Source: Phycisphaerales bacterium | GTDB taxonomy: Bacteria > Planctomycetota > Phycisphaerae > Phycisphaerales > UBA1924 | Assembly (NCBI GenBank): GCA_007694925.1 | Contig: REET01000158.1 | Location: forward strand, 1 to 40,783 | Length of the DNA stretch: 40,783 nucleotides | Direction: 5' to 3' | In this document: one piece after another, positions 1 to 32,145 of the stretch | How positions within the stretch are numbered: the stretch's first letter is position 1 | Layout of the letters: every line of letters starts with the position of its first letter | The notes under the pieces: model-generated | The model's database searches: none | The model's input: the letters and a program-made list of their open reading frames with translations, nothing else | Told to the model about the DNA's origin: nothing | Made by a program: the position numbers and the translations under genes

Positions 1-17
1 GGAATGGGTTCAGTTTT

Positions 18-251
18 CGCCCCGAAGGGGCGCAGGGTTGTAGCCACGGGTGGAAGTGTGCGCAGCACACTGGAACCCGTGGAAAGCTCGCGAAATATGG
101 GTCCGCCCTGAAGGGGCGGAGGAGGAGTTCGACACGAGGCACGCTGCGGTTCCTTCGCCCCTTCAGGGCGAAATCGTAACATGACACTTTCCACGGGTTG
201 CGCTCGTCCGACGCTGCGCGTCGGCCTGCGCTCCACCCGTGGCTACAACCC
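18..251. repeat. Nested imperfect palindrome (REP/MITE-like repeat element)
   Basis: Three nested perfect inverted repeats: GGGTTGTAGCCACGGGTGGA (35-54) / TCCACCCGTGGCTACAACCC (232-251); AACCCGTGGAAAG (74-86) / CTTTCCACGGGTT (187-199); CGCCCTGAAGGGGCG (104-118) / CGCCCCTTCAGGGCG (156-170). A small CGCCCCGAAGGGGCG hairpin lies at 18-32. No credible CDS. Confidence 0.8.
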
Positions 252-21874: not shown

Positions 21875-23335
21875 TTACTGCGGGTCTTGGGAGCGGAGGG
21901 CGTCCTCGGGCACGCCGGCGTGTCGTCCGTTGGTATGGCCGTTCGCGTGCCCGTTGGTGTGCCCGTTCCGGTCGGCGTCGCGTCCGACGGTCACCTCGAC
22001 GGTGGGGCGGACCTGCTCGGGCTTGATGAAGAACTTGCGGTCCGAGGCCGTCAGCGGCTGGAGCTGGTCGTACCAGGTCGCGGTCGGGTCGAACTTGGCG
22101 AAGAAGGGGCGGCGGACGAGGTCGGGGTCGCGGGCCTGGAGGAATTCGAGGACGAACGCCTTCTGCCCGGCGACCTCGCTGACGCCCAGTACATGGCACT
22201 TGCCCGGGAAGCACGACATGCTCGGCCCGCGGACTGTTCTGCCCATGCCCGAGACCTGCTGGTAGGCCTTGCGAAAGATCTCCCAGCACTTGGCGAGCGG
22301 GAGTTCGAAGTAGCTGCGGGCGCCGGTGTCGCGCTCGACGAACATGTAGTAGGGGATCGCGCCGAGGCGGACGCCCCGCGACCAGAGCTCGGCCCACGCG
22401 TTCGCGTCGTCGTTGATGTGTCGGATCAGCGGGCTCTGCATGCGGACATTGGCGCCGGTAGAGCGGATGCGGCGCACGGCCTCTTCGGCGACACCCGTCG
22501 AGATCTCGACGGGGTGGTTGTAGTGGCCCATGATCGCAAGCTGCTTGCCGGCGTTTGTGACATCTTCGAACAGGCGCAGGGCGTCGTCGGCGTCGTTGTC
22601 GGTGACGAAGCGCTGGGGCCAGTACGCGACGCTCTTGGTGCCGATTCGAACGGTTTTGACCGACTCGACAGCGAGCACGGGCTCGATGTACTGGCGCAAA
22701 ACCTTCGACTTCATGATCATCGGGTCGCCGCCGGTGAAGAGCACATCGGTGACCTCGGGGTGCTGCTCCAGGTAGGCGACGAGCTGGTCGGCCTCCTTGT
22801 TAGCGAACCTGAGGTCTTCGAGGCCGACGAACTGCGCCCAGCGGAAACAGAAGGTGCAGTAGGCGTGGCAGGTCTGCCCGTGGCTGGGGAAGAAGAGCAG
22901 CGTCTCGCGGTACTTGTGCTGCACGCCCTGCACGGGCTCGACGGTCCCGTCGTCGAGGGCGATCGTCGGCACATTGTGGGTCATCTGCCCGGCGGGGTGG
23001 GGGTTGAGGCTCAGGCGGATGCGGTTGGCCTCGCGCTCGATCTCTTTCTTGTCCGCCCCATCGCGGATCATCTTGCGCACGGCGCGGTAGTCGTCCTCGT
23101 TGAGCATCCCGCGCTGCGGGAAGGTGAGCTGGAACATCGGGTCGTCGGGCACTTTGTCCCAGTCGATCAGCCGGTCAACGACATACGCGTTGGTCCGGAA
23201 CGGGAGCACGGCCGAGACCACCTCGACCGCCTCGCGGAGCTCGGGGTCGAGGGTCTCCCACTGCGGCAGCTTGGAGATGTTGTTGCGGGTGATGGCGCGG
23301 TACCGCTCGTTGGCGGCCGACTTGTCGGTCGTCAT
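21875..23335 (-). CDS. KamA-family radical SAM protein (lysine 2,3-aminomutase-like)
   Basis: Radical SAM cluster SHGQTCHAYCTFCFRW (CxxxCxxC), DVLFTGGDPMIMKSKVL, MQSPLIRHINDDANAWAELWSRGVRLGAIPYYMF; start MTTDK at 23335. Confidence 0.88.
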   Translation of the reverse strand: MTTDKSAANERYRAITRNNISKLPQWETLDPELREAVEVVSAVLPFRTNAYVVDRLIDWDKVPDDPMFQLTFPQRGMLNEDDYRAVRKMIRDGADKKEIEREANRIRLSLNPHPAGQMTHNVPTIALDDGTVEPVQGVQHKYRETLLFFPSHGQTCHAYCTFCFRWAQFVGLEDLRFANKEADQLVAYLEQHPEVTDVLFTGGDPMIMKSKVLRQYIEPVLAVESVKTVRIGTKSVAYWPQRFVTDNDADDALRLFEDVTNAGKQLAIMGHYNHPVEISTGVAEEAVRRIRSTGANVRMQSPLIRHINDDANAWAELWSRGVRLGAIPYYMFVERDTGARSYFELPLAKCWEIFRKAYQQVSGMGRTVRGPSMSCFPGKCHVLGVSEVAGQKAFVLEFLQARDPDLVRRPFFAKFDPTATWYDQLQPLTASDRKFFIKPEQVRPTVEVTVGRDADRNGHTNGHANGHTNGRHAGVPEDALRSQDPQ

Positions 23336-23560
23336 GGGCGTTCCTCCGCGTGGCGGGGCCCGGCCTGCGAACACACCGATTCAGTGAACGGCACGGACGG
23401 GGCCGAGCGATGAACATGGAGCAACGATTGCTGCTCGGAAGGGGGCCGCGGCTCATCGCCGCTGCAAACCCGGGGGCGGTTCGTCGGGCGTCCTCGAATG
23501 GACGCCCAGACCCGATCCACCAGTCAGTGCATGGTAACCGAAGCCATACGAGAGGGCCAG

Positions 23561-23576
23561 CAGTTTCAGAAAACTG
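23561..23576. repeat. Short perfect inverted repeat in divergent intergenic region (possible operator)
   Basis: CAGTTT-CAGA-AAACTG, adjacent to the AT-rich AATCAAAATACTAACAAAT stretch. Confidence 0.35.
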
Positions 23577-23698
23577 CAATCAAAATACTAACAAATGAAC
23601 TCCGAGAACCACTAAGCCAAAATACCCGCGAGGTCCGCTTGCATCCTGACAGAATCCGGGCTAATCTTGCCGCGAACGCAAGCAACGAGGAGAGGACC

Positions 23699-23752
23699 AT
23701 GATGCTCGCATACCCCCACACCACCGACTTTGCCTTGAGCAACGGCGGGTAA
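23699..23752 (+). CDS. Putative 17-aa leader peptide MMLAYPHTTDFALSNGG
   Basis: Strong SD (ACGAGGAGAGGACC-ATG); TAA stop immediately after GGCGGG; lies directly 5' of an intrinsic terminator in the leader of an ABC exporter operon. Confidence 0.6.
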   Translation: MMLAYPHTTDFALSNGG

Positions 23753-23783
23753 GAGCATCGGCGCACAGACCGTGCACTGCTGC

Positions 23784-23820
23784 CCCGCCTGAACTCAATC
23801 CGGGCGGGTTGTTGTTTTTG
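23784..23820 (+). terminator. Intrinsic terminator in leader (candidate attenuator)
   Basis: CCCGCC-TG (23784-23791) / C-G-GGCGGG (23801-23808) stem, loop AACTCAATC, then TTGTTGTTTTTG. It lies upstream of, and co-oriented with, the ABC operon. Confidence 0.85.
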
Positions 23821-24038
23821 CTGCATCCCGCCCCGTCGCCTTCCCAAATGACACCTTGAACACCGGTTCCTGCCGGCGCGGACATCTGCGCCGGCCAGCG
23901 GGCCGCGGCGTTCCGCGCAGCACCACCCCCGAACCCCTGAACCCCCAACGATCACGGCTGCGCGGCTGATCAGAACGAACCCCAGCGACCGCCCCGGCCC
24001 CCAAGCCGGGCGGGGCGTCATCGACGAGTGCTCCCACC

Positions 24039-25910
24039 ATGCACGCGCTGAAACCGATCTGGAAACTCATGCAGGGCCAGCGATTGCGCTACGCCTCTGC
24101 GCTCGTGGTGCTGGTCCTTGCGGCCGGCGTCTTGTACCTCGTGCCGCTCGTGCCCCAGGTGACCATCGACCGCGTCCTCGCCCCCGAGCACGACGCCGAC
24201 GGCGCCGGCCCGGGCGGGTGGCTGCTGAACCTGATGGGCGGCGAAGAACGGGTGCTAAACAACCTGTGGATCCCGGCGATCGCCATCGTCGGCTTCACGC
24301 TGCTCGCGGGCGGTCTGACCTACCTGCGCGACCGCTGGGCGGCGGGCGCGTCGGAAGGCATCGTCCGTCGCGTGCGCGACCGGTTGTACGACCACCTCCA
24401 GCGCCTGCCGATGCGCTACTACGACACCGCCGAGAGCGGCGACCTCGTGCAGCGCTGCACCTCCGATGTCGAGACGCTGCGGCTGTTCCTCTCCAGTCAT
24501 GTCATCGAGATCGGCCGGTGCGCGTTCATGCTGCTGCTGCCGATCCCGCTGATGGTGATGATCGACTGGCGCATGGCGATCGTCTCGCTGGTGCTGGTCC
24601 CGGTGATCGCGTTCTTCTCGGCGTACTACTTCTTCCGCATCCGCAGCGCGTTCAAGGAGAAGGACGAGGCGGAGGGCCGCCTGACGGCTTCGATTCAGGA
24701 GAACCTCTCGGGCATCCGCGTCGTTCGGGCCTTTGCTCGCCAGGACTTCGAGCGCGAGCGGTTCGACAAGGTCAACACCGACCACCGCGACCTCGACAAC
24801 CGCCTGTACGTGCTCATGGGCCGTTACTGGTCGACTTCCGACCTCCTCTGCCTGACGCAGAAGGGGCTGGTGATCGGCTTTGGGATCTACTGGCTGGCCG
24901 AGGGTTCGCTCGGCGTCGGCGCGTTCTACTTCTTCCTCTCGGTCGTGACGATGTTCATCTTCCCCGTCCGCATGATGGGGCGCGTGCTGACAGAGCTCGG
25001 CAAGGCGATGGTTGCGCTCGGGCGCCTCGAAGAGATCCTCGAACTGATCGAGGAAGACGCGTCCGACGAGCCGGCGATCGCTCTGCAAACCCCGATCCGG
25101 GGCGAGATCGAGTTCAGGGGCGTCGGCTGCGTGCACGGCACGCAGCGCGTGCTCGAAGATGTCTCCTTCAGGGTCGAGCCCGGGCAGACACTGGCGCTGA
25201 TGGGCCCGTCGGGCTCGGGCAAGTCGACGATCATCAACCTCCTGCTTCGCTTCTACGACGCCAGCGAGGGCGAGATTCTGATCGACGGGCGCCCGATCGA
25301 GCGCTACGACCGTCGCGAGCTGCGCCGGAGGATCGCCGTGGTGATGCAGGAGCCGTTCCTCTACTCCAAGACCATCCGCGACAACCTGCGCATCGCGAGG
25401 CCGGACGCGCCCGACTCCGTGGTGACCGAAGCGACGGGGCTCGCGGCGGTCCACGAGTCGATCGAGCGCTTCGAGCGCGGGTACGACACCGTTGTCGGCG
25501 AGCGGGGCGTGACGCTCTCGGGCGGGCAGCGCCAGCGCGTCGCCATCGCCCGCGCCCTCTTGCAGGACCCGCCGGTGCTCGTCCTCGACGACGCCCTGAG
25601 CGCCGTCGACATGGACACCGAGTCGGCCATCATCGACGCCCTCCGCCAGCGCCGTCACGAGCGAACCAGCATCGTGATCGCCCACCGTGTCTCCACCGTC
25701 ATGCACGCCGACACAATCGTCGTGCTCGACAAGGGACGCGTTGTGCAGACCGGCGACCACCGCACGCTGGTGAGCGATCCCGGCCTGTACCGCAGGCTCT
25801 GGAAGCTCCAGACCGCCGGCGACACAACGCAAGACCGGACGCCCACAGACGCCTACACACCCGACCCCGACCGCACCCCTGATTCAGACGAGGTCTCCGC
25901 CCATGGCTGA
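24039..25910 (+). CDS. ABC exporter half-transporter, degenerate-site subunit
   Basis: TM domain plus [29 protein letters not shown], Walker B followed by Asp (LVLDDALSAVD) instead of Glu, IVIAHRVSTV. Confidence 0.95.
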   Translation: MHALKPIWKLMQGQRLRYASALVVLVLAAGVLYLVPLVPQVTIDRVLAPEHDADGAGPGGWLLNLMGGEERVLNNLWIPAIAIVGFTLLAGGLTYLRDRWAAGASEGIVRRVRDRLYDHLQRLPMRYYDTAESGDLVQRCTSDVETLRLFLSSHVIEIGRCAFMLLLPIPLMVMIDWRMAIVSLVLVPVIAFFSAYYFFRIRSAFKEKDEAEGRLTASIQENLSGIRVVRAFARQDFERERFDKVNTDHRDLDNRLYVLMGRYWSTSDLLCLTQKGLVIGFGIYWLAEGSLGVGAFYFFLSVVTMFIFPVRMMGRVLTELGKAMVALGRLEEILELIEEDASDEPAIALQTPIRGEIEFRGVGCVHGTQRVLEDVSFRVEPGQTLALMGPSGSGKSTIINLLLRFYDASEGEILIDGRPIERYDRRELRRRIAVVMQEPFLYSKTIRDNLRIARPDAPDSVVTEATGLAAVHESIERFERGYDTVVGERGVTLSGGQRQRVAIARALLQDPPVLVLDDALSAVDMDTESAIIDALRQRRHERTSIVIAHRVSTVMHADTIVVLDKGRVVQTGDHRTLVSDPGLYRRLWKLQTAGDTTQDRTPTDAYTPDPDRTPDSDEVSAHG

Positions 25911-27756
25911 GCACGCACTCCACGACGACCACTACTCCGGACGCTTCGACCCGAAGCTCTGGATGCGCATCGTGCGCCACACGCTGCCATACCGATGGCT
26001 CATCGCCGGCATGGGGCTCAGCGGCCTGATCATCGCGGCGGTCGAGATCTCGATCCCCATCCTGACCGCACGCCTCGTCGATGGCGCCATCGCCGGCGCC
26101 GACCGTTCGTTGCTCGTCAACCTCGCGTTCGTCTACGCCTTCTGCATCGCGGTCTTCTGCGCCTGCGTGCTCTGGTTCATCGTGATGGCCGGGCGCATCG
26201 CCACCGGCATCGCGTACGACCTGCGCCGCGGCTCGTTCGACCGTCTGCAGGAGCTCTCGTTCTCTTACTACGACACCCGTCCCGTCGGCTGGCTGGTCTC
26301 GCGCCTGACCAGCGACTGCGACAAGATCAGCCGCATCATCCCCTGGTTCAGCCTCGATGTCGTCTGGGGCTCGTGCATGCTCGTGGGCATCTCGATCGCG
26401 ATGCTGATGCTCCACTGGCCCCTGGGGCTGACGGTCCTGCTGATTGTGCCGCCGCTGGTGCTCGTCACGGCGTACTTCCAGCGGCGCCTGCTCTCCAGCT
26501 CGCGCCAGATCCGGCGGACCAACTCGCAGATCACCGCCTCGTACTCCGAAGAGCTGATGGGCGTCAAGACGACCAAGAGCCTGGTGCGCGAAGAGGCCAA
26601 CCTCGGCGAGTTCCAGAGGCTCTCGGACACCATGCACGAGTGCTCGATGCGCAACCGGCTGCAGTCGGCGATCTACCTGCCCGCCGTGATCGTGCTCGGC
26701 TCCGTCGGCGCCGGCCTTGCGCTCTGGAAGGGCGGCGTCGAGGTCGCAAAGCCCGGGGGCGGGGCGCTGTCGGTCGGCGAGCTGATCGCCTTCATGCAGT
26801 TCACCGGCCTTTTCGCGATGCCGATCCAGGACCTCGCCGCGAGGTTCACCGACCTCCAGAGCGGCCAGGCCGCGGCCGAGCGCATCCAGTCCCTCCTCGA
26901 CACCGAGCCGGAGATATCCGACTCGCCGGAAGTGCAGAGCGCGATCGGCGCGCACGCTTCGAGCGATCGCGCCGATGATCCGGCTCTCGCCGAGGACGGC
27001 CTGCCCGCGAAGATCGACCGCGTCGAGTTCCGGCGCGTCTGGTTCGAGTACAAGCCGGGCGAGCCGGTGCTCAAGGACTTCAGCCTCACGGTCGACGCGG
27101 GGCACACGGTCGCGCTGGTCGGCCAGACCGGCGGGGGCAAGAGCACCATCGTCTCGCTGGCCGCACGATTTTATGAGCCCACGCGGGGCGAGATCCTCAT
27201 CGACGGCGTCGACTACCGCAAAAGAAGCCTCCGCTGGCTGCAGTCCAGCCTCGGCGTCGTGCAGCAGACCCCGCACCTGTTCTCGGGCACGGTCGGGGAC
27301 AACATCCGATACGGGAGGTTGGACGCGACCGACGAGGATCTGGTCCAGGCCGCGAAGGCCGCCAACGCCTGGGGCTTCATCGAGCGCCTCGAAGGCGGGC
27401 TGTCGTTCGAGGTCGGCGAGGGCGGCCAGCGTCTCTCGACGGGCCAGCGCCAGCTCGTCTCGCTCTCGCGCGCCCTGCTCGCCGACCCGCAGATCGTCAT
27501 CATGGACGAGGCGACCAGCTCGGTCGACACCGAGACCGAGCGCCTCGTGCAGGACGCGATCGAGACGCTGCTGCAGGGCCGCATCGCCTTCGTCATCGCC
27601 CACCGTCTGAGCACCATCCGCTCGGCCGACACGATCCTCGTCATCAACGAGGGCGTGATCACCGAGCGGGGCACCCACGACGAACTCATGGCCAAGCGCG
27701 GGCGCTACTTCAGCCTTTACAGAAACCAGTTCGCCCGGGAGCACTGGCGGAGGTAG
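25903..27756 (+). CDS. ABC exporter half-transporter, canonical-Walker B subunit
   Basis: VGQTGGGKST, non-canonical signature LSTGQRQLVSLSRALL, canonical VIMDEATSSVD; ATG overlaps the upstream gene's stop by 8 nt. Confidence 0.95.
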   Translation: MAEHALHDDHYSGRFDPKLWMRIVRHTLPYRWLIAGMGLSGLIIAAVEISIPILTARLVDGAIAGADRSLLVNLAFVYAFCIAVFCACVLWFIVMAGRIATGIAYDLRRGSFDRLQELSFSYYDTRPVGWLVSRLTSDCDKISRIIPWFSLDVVWGSCMLVGISIAMLMLHWPLGLTVLLIVPPLVLVTAYFQRRLLSSSRQIRRTNSQITASYSEELMGVKTTKSLVREEANLGEFQRLSDTMHECSMRNRLQSAIYLPAVIVLGSVGAGLALWKGGVEVAKPGGGALSVGELIAFMQFTGLFAMPIQDLAARFTDLQSGQAAAERIQSLLDTEPEISDSPEVQSAIGAHASSDRADDPALAEDGLPAKIDRVEFRRVWFEYKPGEPVLKDFSLTVDAGHTVALVGQTGGGKSTIVSLAARFYEPTRGEILIDGVDYRKRSLRWLQSSLGVVQQTPHLFSGTVGDNIRYGRLDATDEDLVQAAKAANAWGFIERLEGGLSFEVGEGGQRLSTGQRQLVSLSRALLADPQIVIMDEATSSVDTETERLVQDAIETLLQGRIAFVIAHRLSTIRSADTILVINEGVITERGTHDELMAKRGRYFSLYRNQFAREHWRR

Positions 27757-27801
27757 GCCCGGTCGGCGGCCCCGCCCCTCCGGCGGATACGCTTGACGGC
27801 T

Positions 27802-28575
27802 ATGGGAGGGCGCAACAACCACCGACCGACGGAAACAGCCGATCCCGCACAAGCGGACGGGCGGCGAGGGGGCGAGGCTGTCTTCAGCACGCGGGGCGTC
27901 ACCAAGGTCTACACCATGGGCGCTGTCGAGGTCCACGCCCTCCGGGGCGTCGACCTCGACCTGTACAGCGGCGAGTTCGTTGTGTTGCTCGGCCCCTCGG
28001 GAAGCGGCAAGTCCACCCTGCTGAACATCCTCGGCGGGCTCGATGTCCCCACCGCCGGGAGCGTCCGCTACATGGACGAGGATCTCTCGGGCGCCGGCGA
28101 CGCCGTGTTGACCCGCTACAGGCGCGACCATGTCGGCTTCGTCTTCCAGTTCTACAACCTCATCCCGAGCCTGACCGCCCGTGAGAATGTCGCGCTGGTG
28201 ACCGAGATCGCCCGCGACCCGATGACGCCCGAGGAAGCGCTCGAGATCGCCGGGCTCCCGGACCGGATGGACCACTTCCCCTCGCAGCTCTCGGGGGGCG
28301 AGCAGCAGCGGGTCGCGATCGCCCGCGCCATCGCCAAGCGTCCGCGGGTCCTCCTCTGCGACGAGCCGACGGGCGCGCTCGATGTCAAGACCGGGATCGT
28401 CGTGCTCGAAGCGCTCGACCGCGTCAACCGCGAGATCGGCGCGACGACCGCCGTCATCACCCACAATGTCTCCATCGCCGAGATGGCCGACCGCGTCGTG
28501 TCGATCTACGACGGACGCATCGCCGAGGTCCGGCGCAACGACCGAAAGGTCCCCGCCAGCGAGCTCCGGTGGTGA
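27802..28575 (+). CDS. ABC transporter ATP-binding protein (LolD/MacB type)
   Basis: [77 protein letters not shown]. Confidence 0.95.
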
Positions 28576-30935
28576 GGGCACTTGACAGAAAACTCCTCAG
28601 AGATCTCCGGGGCTCGTGGGCCCAGGCCCTGGCCATCAGCGTCGTGCTCGCCTGCGGCGTCGCCATGTACATCATGTCGATGACGACACTCGTCTCCGTC
28701 GAACGCTCGATGGAGAGCTACTACCGCGACCAGCGCTTCGCCGATGTGTTCGCCCATCTCAAGCGAGCGCCGGACTCGCTCCGCGAGCGGATCGTGTCGA
28801 TCCCCGGCGTTGCCCGGGCCGAGACGCGCGTCGTGGCGGATGTCAACCTGCTCATCGACACCCGGCCGGAGCCGGCCGTGGGGCGCCTCGTCTCTCTGCC
28901 CGAGCGGGGCGAGCCCGCCCTCAACGCGCCGTACCTCCGCCGCGGACGCTGGATCGAGCCCGACCGCCCCGGCGAGGCGCTCGTCAGCGAGGCGTTCGCC
29001 GAAGCCCATAGCCTCCGTCCGGGCGACAGCGTCAGGGCCGTCATCAACCAACGCCTGCGCGAGCTGACCATCGTCGGGATCGCGCTCTCGCCCGAGTATG
29101 TCTACGAGATCCGTCCGGGCGAGATGCTGCCCGACCCGCTCCGCTTCGGCGTCTTCTGGATGAGCAGGCGCGAGCTCGGCCCTGCCTACGACCTCGACGG
29201 CGCGTTCAATGATGTCTCGCTCGGCCTCATGCCCGGCGCCGCCAAAGCCGAGGTCATCGCCCGCCTCGACGAGCTCCTCGCGCCCTACGGCGGGCTCGGC
29301 GCCTACGGACGCGACGAGCAGATCTCCCACCAGGTCCTCGAAAGCGAGATCGATCAGCTCCGCGGCATGAGCCTGCTCATCCCCGCGATCTTCCTCGCCG
29401 TCACGGCCTTCCTCTTCAACATGGTCATCTCGCGCATGATCCGGTCGCAGCGCGAGCAGATCGCGGCGCTCAAGGCCTTCGGCTACTCGAACACGGAGAT
29501 CGGGGGCCACTACGCGGGCTTTGTCGGGCTCATCGTCTTCGCGGGTGTGCTGCTGGGCGCAATCGGCGGGTGGTGGCTCGGTGGCGCGATGGTCGACATG
29601 TATGTCCGTTTCTTCCGCTTCCCCCGCCTCGACTTGGTCTTCGATGTCGGGGCGGTCGCGGTCTCGGCGTTGCTGAGCCTGCTCGCCGCCGGCGCCGGGG
29701 CGTTCTGGGCCCTCCGTCGCGCCGTGCGCCTGCCCCCGGCCGAGGCGATGCGTCCCGAGCCGCCCCCGGACTTCCGCGCCACTGTCATCGAACGCCTCGG
29801 CCTGCAGCGTTCCCTCTCGCAGCCGGCGAGGATGGTCCTGCGGAACATCGAACGACAGCCGCTCCGCAGCTCGCTCACCTGTCTGGGCATGTCGCTGGCC
29901 GTCGCGATCATGGTGCTGGGCAACCTCAACGCCGAGATCATCGACCGGCTCATCAAGCACGAGTTCTTCTGGACGCAGCGCCAGGACATGACCGTCTCGT
30001 TTGTCGAGCCGACCTCGGGGCGTTCGCTGAGAGAGGTCGAACGCTTGCCCGGCGTGCTGTACGCCGAGCCGTTCAGAGCCGTCGCGGTCCGTGTCCGGTC
30101 CGGCCAGGTCTCGCGCCGTGTCGCGCTCATGGGCCTGCCCGAGCAGCGCGACCTGCGCCGCCTGCTCGACGAGGACGCGAGAGAGGTCGCCCTCCCGCCC
30201 GACGGCCTGCTGATCTCCGAGAGCCTCGCCGAGATCCTCGGCGCCCGTCCGGGCCAGAGCGTGCAGATCGAAGTCATGGAGGGCCGGCGTCCGGTCCGGG
30301 CCGTTCCCATCGCCGGCGTCATCGCCGACTACTCGGGGCAGTCGGTCTACATGAATATCAAGGCGCTGCACCGCCTCATGCGCGAGCAGGACGCGATCTC
30401 CGGCGCGTTCCTCAAGGTCGATCCCGACGGCGCCGAGGCGCTCTTCTCCGAGCTCCGCAGGACACCGGGCGTCGCCGGCGTCACCATCAAGGACGCGGCG
30501 ATCGACAGCTTCGAAGAGACCATCGCCGAAAGCCTGCTGCTGCTCCGAGCCTTTACGATCTCATTCGCGACGATCATCGCCTTCGGCGTGATCTACAACA
30601 GCGCCCGCATCTCCCTTTCTGAACGGGGCAGAGAGCTCGCCACGCTCCGCGTGATCGGGTTCACACGCGCCGAGATCTCACGCATCCTTCTGGGCGAGCT
30701 CGCCCTGCTCACCCTCATCGCCATCCCGGTCGGCCTCGTGATCGGGCGCGAGCTCGGCGCATTCGCGATGGAGGCCCTCCAGACCGAGCACCAACGCTTC
30801 CCCGTCGTCATCGGGCGTCAGACCTACGCCTACGCGGTCGCCGTGACCATCGTCGCGGCGACGCTCTCCGGCCTTATCGTCCGTCGGCGGCTCGACCGCC
30901 TCGACCTCATCGCAGTCCTTAAGTCGCAGGCATGA
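28569..30935 (+). CDS. ABC transporter permease with two FtsX-like domains
   Basis: About 788 aa; two FtsX-type blocks ([33 protein letters not shown] and [38 protein letters not shown]); overlaps the ATPase stop codon. Confidence 0.92.
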
Positions 30936-30939
30936 ATCC

Positions 30940-32145
30940 GTGAAACTCACGATCACCAGAATCCTGGGAGCGTCCGTCGGCGTCGCGGCAGTCGCCGGGC
31001 TCGTGTACGCCTTCATCCCCGCCCCCGTCATCGTTGACGCGGCCCAGGTCCGCGAGGGCCAGATGGTTGTGACTGTCGACGACGACGGGCGCACGCGCAT
31101 CCGCGACCGCTACATCGTCTCCTCGCCGCTGGCCGGCCGCGTGCAGCGCACCACCCTCCGCGCCGGCGATCCCGTCGAGGCGGGGACGACCCGTCTGACG
31201 ACCATCGCGCCGGCCGACCCCAGCCTGCTCGACGCCCGGGCCGTCGCCGAGGCCGAGGCGCGCGTGCGCCGCGCCGAGGCATCGCTGATGAGGGCCGGCC
31301 CCGAACGCGAACGGGCACGCGCCCAGTTCAACTACAGCGAGTCCGAGCTCGGCGCCGTCCGCGCCGCGTTCGACCGGGGCGTCGCCGGGCGCCTGGAGCT
31401 CGAAGCCGCCGAGCTCCAGCACCGCGCCGCGCTGGAGCTCCTCAACGCCGCGAAGTTCTCAGAAGAGATCGCCCGCTTCGAGCTCGACCTGGCGCGAGCA
31501 GCGCTGCTGCGCACAAGGCCGGATTCCGGCGACGACGCCGGAATCGAGCACATCGAGATCACCGCCCCCGTCGACGGGCGCGTGCTCCGCGTCTTCCAGG
31601 AGAGCATGGCGGTCGTCGCGCCGGGCGCGCCGCTGATCGAGATCGGCGACCCGACCGACCTCGAAGTCGAGATCGATGTCCTCTCGACCGACGCGGTGCG
31701 CGTCGTCCCCGGCGCACGGGTCTTCTTCGAGCGGTGGGGGGGCGACGGCGTGCTGGAGGGGCGCGTCAGGCTCATCGAGCCCCGCGCGTTCACCCACATC
31801 TCCGCGCTGGGCGTCGAGGAGCAACGCGTCTACATCATCGCCGACTTCATCGATCCGCCCGAGCAGCGCCCCTCGCTCGGCGACGCCTACCGCGTCGAGG
31901 CCCGCATCGTCGTCTGGGAAGAAGACGGCGTCGTCATCGCTCCGTCCAGCGCGCTCTTCCGCCACGAAGGAAGCTGGGCCGTCTACACCATCGACAACGG
32001 CCGAGCCCGCCGACGCGCCGTCGAGGTCGGCCAGATGTCCGGCATGGACGCCCAGATCATTGACGGCCTCCAGCCCGGCCAGACACTGATCGTGCACCCC
32101 GGCGACGACATCAAAGACGGGGCCCGTGTGCAGATCCGCCGCTGA
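30940..32145 (+). CDS. HlyD/MacA-like efflux adaptor
   Basis: N-terminal TM, SPLAGRVQRTTLRAGDPVEAGT, coiled coil, ITAPVDGRVLRVFQESMAVVAPGAPLIEIGDP; GTG start 4 nt after the permease stop. Confidence 0.92.
   Translation: MKLTITRILGASVGVAAVAGLVYAFIPAPVIVDAAQVREGQMVVTVDDDGRTRIRDRYIVSSPLAGRVQRTTLRAGDPVEAGTTRLTTIAPADPSLLDARAVAEAEARVRRAEASLMRAGPERERARAQFNYSESELGAVRAAFDRGVAGRLELEAAELQHRAALELLNAAKFSEEIARFELDLARAALLRTRPDSGDDAGIEHIEITAPVDGRVLRVFQESMAVVAPGAPLIEIGDPTDLEVEIDVLSTDAVRVVPGARVFFERWGGDGVLEGRVRLIEPRAFTHISALGVEEQRVYIIADFIDPPEQRPSLGDAYRVEARIVVWEEDGVVIAPSSALFRHEGSWAVYTIDNGRARRRAVEVGQMSGMDAQIIDGLQPGQTLIVHPGDDIKDGARVQIRR

Follow-up and report, generated by a model that had tools for sequence, protein, structure and literature searches.

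The stretch of DNA between a radical SAM gene and an ABC exporter gene pair in an uncultured Phycisphaerales bacterium raises the question of whether a ribosome on a small leader open reading frame (ORF) decides if the exporter genes are transcribed. The locus lies on contig REET01000158.1 (assembly GCA_007694925.1), of which positions 1 to 40,783 were analysed; this whole stretch of 40,783 nucleotides is called the window. A sequence-only reading of the same DNA had claimed a leader ORF with mutually exclusive antiterminator and terminator, similar to the bmrB leader, and this core claim proved well supported by comparison with relatives. Taking the comparison and the folding models together, we consider it highly probable that the leader is a ribosome-mediated transcription attenuator of a heterodimeric ABC exporter operon, built of four RNA segments and working like bmrB-bmrCD.

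Features of the leader and the exporter locus

The features of the locus, by position in the window, are listed below.

21875-23374, - strand: divergent neighbour, KamA-family radical SAM protein (homology; also matches EpmB, which acts on EF-P)
23639-23667, + strand: promoter-like site TTGCAT-17-TAATCT (sequence), with the predicted leader transcript start just 3' of it
23687-23695, + strand: Shine-Dalgarno (SD) sequence GAGGAGAGG of the leader ORF (sequence; identical in genus mates)
23699-23752, + strand: leader ORF predicted from sequence, 17 codons, 54 bp, peptide MMLAYPHTTDFALSNGG, stop codon TAA at 23750-23752
23702, + strand: second in-frame ATG of the leader ORF (sequence)
23701-23715, + strand: segment 1', the protector arm (MFE fold of the naked leader and swap test)
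23744-23749, + strand: region 1, GGCGGG, the last two sense codons of the leader ORF (sequence and folding)
23753-23783, + strand: linker, comprising the 3' arm of the protector (23753-23759) and an inner hairpin that extends the antiterminator (folding)
23784-23791, + strand: region 2, CCCGCCTG (CCCGCC at 23784-23789), common to antiterminator and terminator
23801-23820, + strand: region 3 and U-rich tract, TTGTTGTTTTTG, the 3' half of the terminator (region 3 is 23801-23808, with GGCGGG at 23803-23808)
23784-23820, + strand: predicted intrinsic terminator (terminator scan and folding)
24039-25910, + strand: ABC1, exporter subunit (PF00664 and PF00005), degenerate Walker B VLVLDDALSAVD
25903-27756, + strand: ABC2, partner subunit (ABC_membrane and ABC_tran domains), LSTGQR signature, canonical DEAT Walker B
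27793-28575, + strand: LolD/DevA-type ATPase (domain/homology search)
28569-30935, + strand: FtsX/MacB-type permease (domain/homology search)
30940-32145, + strand: HlyD-type adaptor (domain/homology search)

The SD, the leader ORF, regions 1, 2 and 3 and the terminator were found base for base where the sequence-only reading had placed them. The SD is strong, and the promoter-like site, identical in three genus members, lies about 20 nt 5' of it. The terminator starts 31 nt 3' of the leader stop codon and was the sole + strand match of the terminator scan in 22000-29000. No other likely gene that it could serve was seen on the + strand of 23375-23784 and, since the KamA-family neighbour lies on the opposite strand, the terminated transcript must begin within this interval. 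The leader had no Rfam match, and a tRNA was the only element in the whole window to pass the gathering score. The KamA/EpmB-like neighbour adjoins a leader that contains Pro.

In ABC1, LDD replaces the catalytic DE and the signature is LSGGQ; the start of ABC2 overlaps the end of ABC1 by 8 bases. A single degenerate site like this one is the mark of heterodimeric exporters, BmrCD and TM287/288 among them. Among the PDB relatives of ABC2 are TM0288, YheH/BmrD and chains 5mkk/6raf, and the split into one degenerate and one canonical subunit was seen in most leader-bearing relatives in which both genes were readable. ABC1 and ABC2 are predicted from these features to form a heterodimeric multidrug-type ABC exporter with one degenerate ATP site, like BmrCD. 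The genes at 27793-32145 possibly share one operon with them, judging co-transcription by spacing.

Predicted folding states of the leader

In the MFE fold of the naked leader from 23666, the terminator forms and, over the ORF, GATGCTC (23701-23707) pairs with GAGCATC (23753-23759), and TACCC (23711-23715) pairs with GGGTA (23747-23751), overlapping region 1. For the state model, the RNA left free by the ribosome was folded codon by codon at 37 °C, the ribosome being assumed to cover 15 nt counted from the start of the P-site codon. The equilibrium probability of the terminator, P(terminator), was 0.98 for the naked full leader, 0.01-0.06 with the ribosome on codons 1-5, 0.29-0.81 on codons 6-9, 0.08 on codon 10, 0.00 on codon 11 and 0.88-0.99 from codon 12 onward (0.88 with the stop codon in the A site). 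When the first codons were removed, region 1 paired with region 2 over the inner hairpin; when region 1 was removed, a check that the sequence-only reading had proposed, the terminator and the inner hairpin alone remained. In silico, antiterminator and terminator are mutually exclusive and the position of the ribosome sets the choice.

The four segments would be 1' (codons 1-5), 1 (the last codons plus the bases that follow the stop), 2 and 3, which could form the trp-like alternative series 1':1, 1:2 and 2:3, with 2:3 as the terminator. With no ribosome loaded, 1':1 would form and 2:3 would terminate; a ribosome finishing the ORF would cover segment 1, and termination by 2:3 would again follow. 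If, for instance, an antibiotic that targets the 50S subunit stalled the ribosome within about the first five codons, the ribosome would displace 1', 1:2 would pair, and polymerase would read through into the pump genes. We infer that the leader is transcribed, translated and subject to termination, and that induction and control follow this scheme. The codons predicted to be sensitive to a stall are the first five. With several 50S inhibitors, ribosomes are arrested soon after the start of an ORF, and arrest by chloramphenicol or linezolid favours Ala next to last in the chain. Codon 4 of the leader ORF is Ala; our guess is that arrest there would put codon 5 in the P site, where P(terminator) is 0.06.

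The attenuator core of the sequence-only mechanism stands, but its account of the untranslated state, which missed segment 1', does not. It had expected an absent ribosome to give read-through. This is probably wrong, because protector 1' hides region 1 and the terminator wins in the unread leader at equilibrium; it also disagrees with bmrB, in which abolishing leader translation lowered expression and prevented induction (PMC4191407). The untranslated state is nevertheless less certain than the others in the model: since region 2 is already paired upstream (0.77) in the naked RNA before region 3 is made, this state is kinetically ambiguous, and the co-transcriptional outcome would depend on kinetics. 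The naked, early-stall and stop states were retained in silico in both genus mates, and the low P(terminator) at codons 10-11 was missing in genome G002.

Taken alone, the three-way match in the window is improbable only to a modest degree. Of the shuffles of the window leader, 22% contained a 6-nt copy of region 1, the fold energy of the whole leader was ordinary (z -0.68), and 9 of 500 dinucleotide shuffles in which the terminator was kept switched as well as the real leader in silico, by P(terminator) of at least 0.9 naked, at least 0.85 at the stop and at most 0.05 at the lowest stall, all three being required. The window by itself gives moderate evidence for an attenuator; given the conservation in distant relatives described below, the layout is clearly more than chance.

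Searches within the genus, family and class

The genus comparison covered three genomes, which are 94-98% identical and too alike for covariation. The linker was unchanged among them except for one inserted C in both relatives, and both substitutions in the leader ORF among the genus mates were non-synonymous; the substitution pattern among these three members does not support the coding status of the ORF. A nucleotide search of the family and order gave chance-level matches only outside the genus, the matches of a small-peptide pattern search were confined to the genus, and in a protein search of 100 family genomes, just one from outside the genus had a close relative of ABC1. A fixed pattern, AGCGGG/CCCGCT/AGCGGG, had 3 matches in 298 class genomes, none before a comparable gene, and these were taken as chance.

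The same layout before distant ABC1 homologs

The loci of ABC1 homologs from other genomes were inspected by eye and then by script. The same layout, in different letters, was found 5' of homologs with 42-60% identity in Planctomycetota, Verrucomicrobiota, Eiseniibacteriota, Acidobacteriota and Bacillota, and a counterpart of region 1 was among the elements recovered. Just 5' of ABC1, many of these loci combine an SD-led small ORF with a promoter-like site and the three-way pairing. The leader peptides and DNA differ from locus to locus (MIMFTPKIDLSGKENPGG in L030, MNITIPVTYDGKTL in L039, MRVLMTPIYVLPTNVSEKVRLSG in L032, MHIRFLLQKDAGPNIGIPGERVWRQT in L037 and MFIHASPIVGLRR in L115), and the Clostridia locus L070 uses GTCCGC/GCGGAC/GTCCGC; across the relatives, no conserved primary-sequence core was seen beyond GCGGG pairing elements. 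The sequence of the leader, its pairing options and the conservation of its layout are matters of observation.

In the scripted terminator scan, a region-1 copy of at least 6 nt accompanied 23 of 35 ABC1 leaders and 61 of 266 other terminators in the same loci, and an SD-led small ORF accompanied 18/35 and 20/266, respectively. A terminator with both a region-1 copy and an SD-led small ORF ending at region 1 was found in 14/35 ABC1 leaders versus 1/266 other terminators (Fisher 8e-14), counts that are approximate, with close kin included (L030/L031) and the scripted ORF of L070 differing from the favoured one. Promoter-like sites of the form TTG...-16..18-.A...T stood 5' of 18 of 28 leader ORFs, against 4.2 expected from shuffles.

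Several loci depart from the common form. In L038, L052, L099 and L106, the small ORF and the three-way pairing are kept and the hairpin is without a clear U tract (e.g. GAGCGGGCACCC); intrinsic termination is therefore doubtful there, and another output is possible. The related leaders of L043, L058 and L108 end in the common peptide VAGDVLLNYG or a close variant, and their region 1 begins 30 nt before the end of the stop codon, beyond masking by a ribosome at the stop, so that the masking step must differ. The leader peptides of the verrucomicrobial loci L049, L056 and L057 have the C-terminal motif W.[PS]G[MT]G in common, whose coding sequence lies in a small hairpin (such as TCCTGG..CCAGGA), and region 1 is 28-44 nt past the stop; these may be a sub-type with a conserved arrest-like peptide. 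Two of the leader-bearing loci belong to organisms in culture, Luteolibacter pohnpeiensis (L049) and Roseibacillus persicicus (L045). L036 has a second, near-identical terminator after the first, 5' of ABC1, and tandem terminators of this kind can imitate a region-1 copy in automated scans.

About half of the ABC1 homologs are without a leader, including loci in which ABC1 directly follows another gene or a tRNA. In the leader-less L096 and L103, ABC1 is immediately preceded by a tRNA gene (CTT anticodon, by eye); their close relative L100 has a leader. In a tree of 78 ABC1 proteins, leader-bearing members fall on both sides of the midpoint root, interleaved with leader-less ones, and well supported branches force at least 13 leader changes; the tree would fit frequent loss and repeated gain of the leader alike.

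Specificity of the pairings

Swap tests were run on a curated leader set, partly picked by eye; in these and the other tests over leaders, the leaders were treated without correction for relatedness. The 1:2 duplex averaged -16.5 kcal/mol with own partners and -13.8 kcal/mol with swapped ones, and 0 of 20,000 permutations did as well. Full pairing of the 7-nt core (7/7) was seen in 62% with the own region 1, compared with 18% when region 1 came from a leader of another region 2, the leaders in this test having 15 different region-2 heptamers. Judged by these swaps, the 1:2 pairing is leader-specific and kept through sequence change. The 1':1 duplex behaved similarly (own -12.8, swapped -10.6 kcal/mol; permutation P 1e-4); examples of the protector are ACATCCGCTTTCTC with the stretch around GAGAGCGGGTGTG in L037 and TTCACCC with GGGTGAA in L030. 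The switch index exceeded all 60 shuffles in 9 of 22 leaders, and L038, L058, L083, L106 and L107 showed little equilibrium switching. The conservation of a plan rather than a sequence, spread over several phyla, is remarkable.

Alternative explanations

The same data were weighed against other accounts of the leader. A version with three segments and no working protector, in which transcription would run on through an untranslated leader and stop only after completed translation, is unlikely, although it draws on the early upstream pairing of region 2: fast folding could lock the antiterminator before region 3 appears, and in most other leaders, too, region 2 of the naked RNA is engaged upstream before polymerase reaches region 3. 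At equilibrium, however, the full naked leader forms the terminator, the protector pairing is leader-specific across relatives, and abolishing translation of the bmrB leader lowered rather than raised expression (PMC4191407). It is very improbable that the terminator belongs to an independent small RNA or is a plain upstream terminator, with the small ORF and region 1 coincidental. The frequency of region 1 alone in shuffles, the ordinary stability of the whole fold and the recurrence of GCGGG-type terminator stems in related genomes would fit such a coincidence, but the interval 23375-23784 offers the terminator no other likely gene, the combined layout is tied to the ABC family across phyla, and the pairing partners change together.

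Two further accounts keep the switch and change the signal. If the ORF were incidental, direct ligand sensing by a riboswitch or a protein-binding leader could also exchange terminator and antiterminator; this account is very improbable given that no Rfam family matched, that the relatives share no primary-sequence core beyond the pairing elements, and that an SD-led ORF ending at region 1 recurs. An amino-acid-starvation attenuator of the trp/his type would have the same four-segment topology, yet the leader peptide has no run of one codon type, its composition varies among relatives, and the genes encode a multidrug-type exporter rather than a biosynthetic pathway, making this account very improbable. 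The sequence-only reading had likewise favoured a general translation signal over a single amino acid. The four-segment attenuator responding to ribosome progress remains our preferred reading.

Relation to known attenuators

The bmrB leader controls bmrCD in Bacillus subtilis by ribosome-mediated attenuation, as proven by reporters, and chloramphenicol, erythromycin and lincomycin are inducers; an untranslatable bmrB leader gives lower, uninducible expression, and its predicted anti-antiterminator is without an assigned role (Reilman et al. 2014, PMC4191407). Both leaders place a small ORF, a terminator, an antiterminator and a predicted anti-antiterminator 5' of a heterodimeric multidrug ABC exporter, and in both (in silico for the window leader) control would follow ribosome progress and not one amino acid. 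They differ in that bmrB is 162 bp long with the terminator inside the coding region, whereas the window ORF is 54 bp long with the terminator 31 nt after the stop, and in that the window leader is known from sequence and folding. The conserved segment 1' suggests a role for the bmrB anti-antiterminator, namely keeping the pump off while the leader is unread.

The PatAB exporter pair of Streptococcus pneumoniae likewise has a terminator upstream, for which an antiterminator and an anti-antiterminator are predicted (PMC4319486), although it belongs to another phylum and a leader ORF or ribosome role is not demonstrated for it. The Escherichia coli trp attenuator shares the four-segment choice of protector, antiterminator and terminator by ribosome position; in contrast, the window leader has no Trp-like codon run, precedes an exporter and probably responds to ribosome inhibition. 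Upstream attenuators termed ABC-leaders have been predicted for ABC operons, among them a multidrug export operon of lactobacilli, and the main text of that work gives an example from neither Planctomycetota nor Verrucomicrobiota (Naville and Gautheret 2010, PMC2965389). The sequence-only reading knew of no such system in this lineage, and our search of open-access papers found no report for Planctomycetota or Verrucomicrobiota. The attenuator mechanism itself is already known; by this literature search, the example in these phyla is new.

Implications

In the literature searched, a ribosome-stalling sensor before such pumps has so far been described only in Bacillota. As a tentative extension, to which we give somewhat less than an even chance, one heterodimeric ABC exporter family may carry such a sensor in at least five phyla, with the four-segment pairing plan conserved and not the sequence; it would be an alarm for translation stress that is either ancient or was rebuilt repeatedly. 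The occurrence of a single pairing plan in differing letters would let inheritance and rebuilding of attenuators be tested against each other. If the reading is true, coupled transcription and translation would be implied at the exporter locus, and the leader could be used as a reporter of natural ribosome inhibitors in communities of this kind. Planctomycetes and several other little-studied phyla would then detect ribosome inhibitors as bmrB does and respond with a multidrug-type pump.
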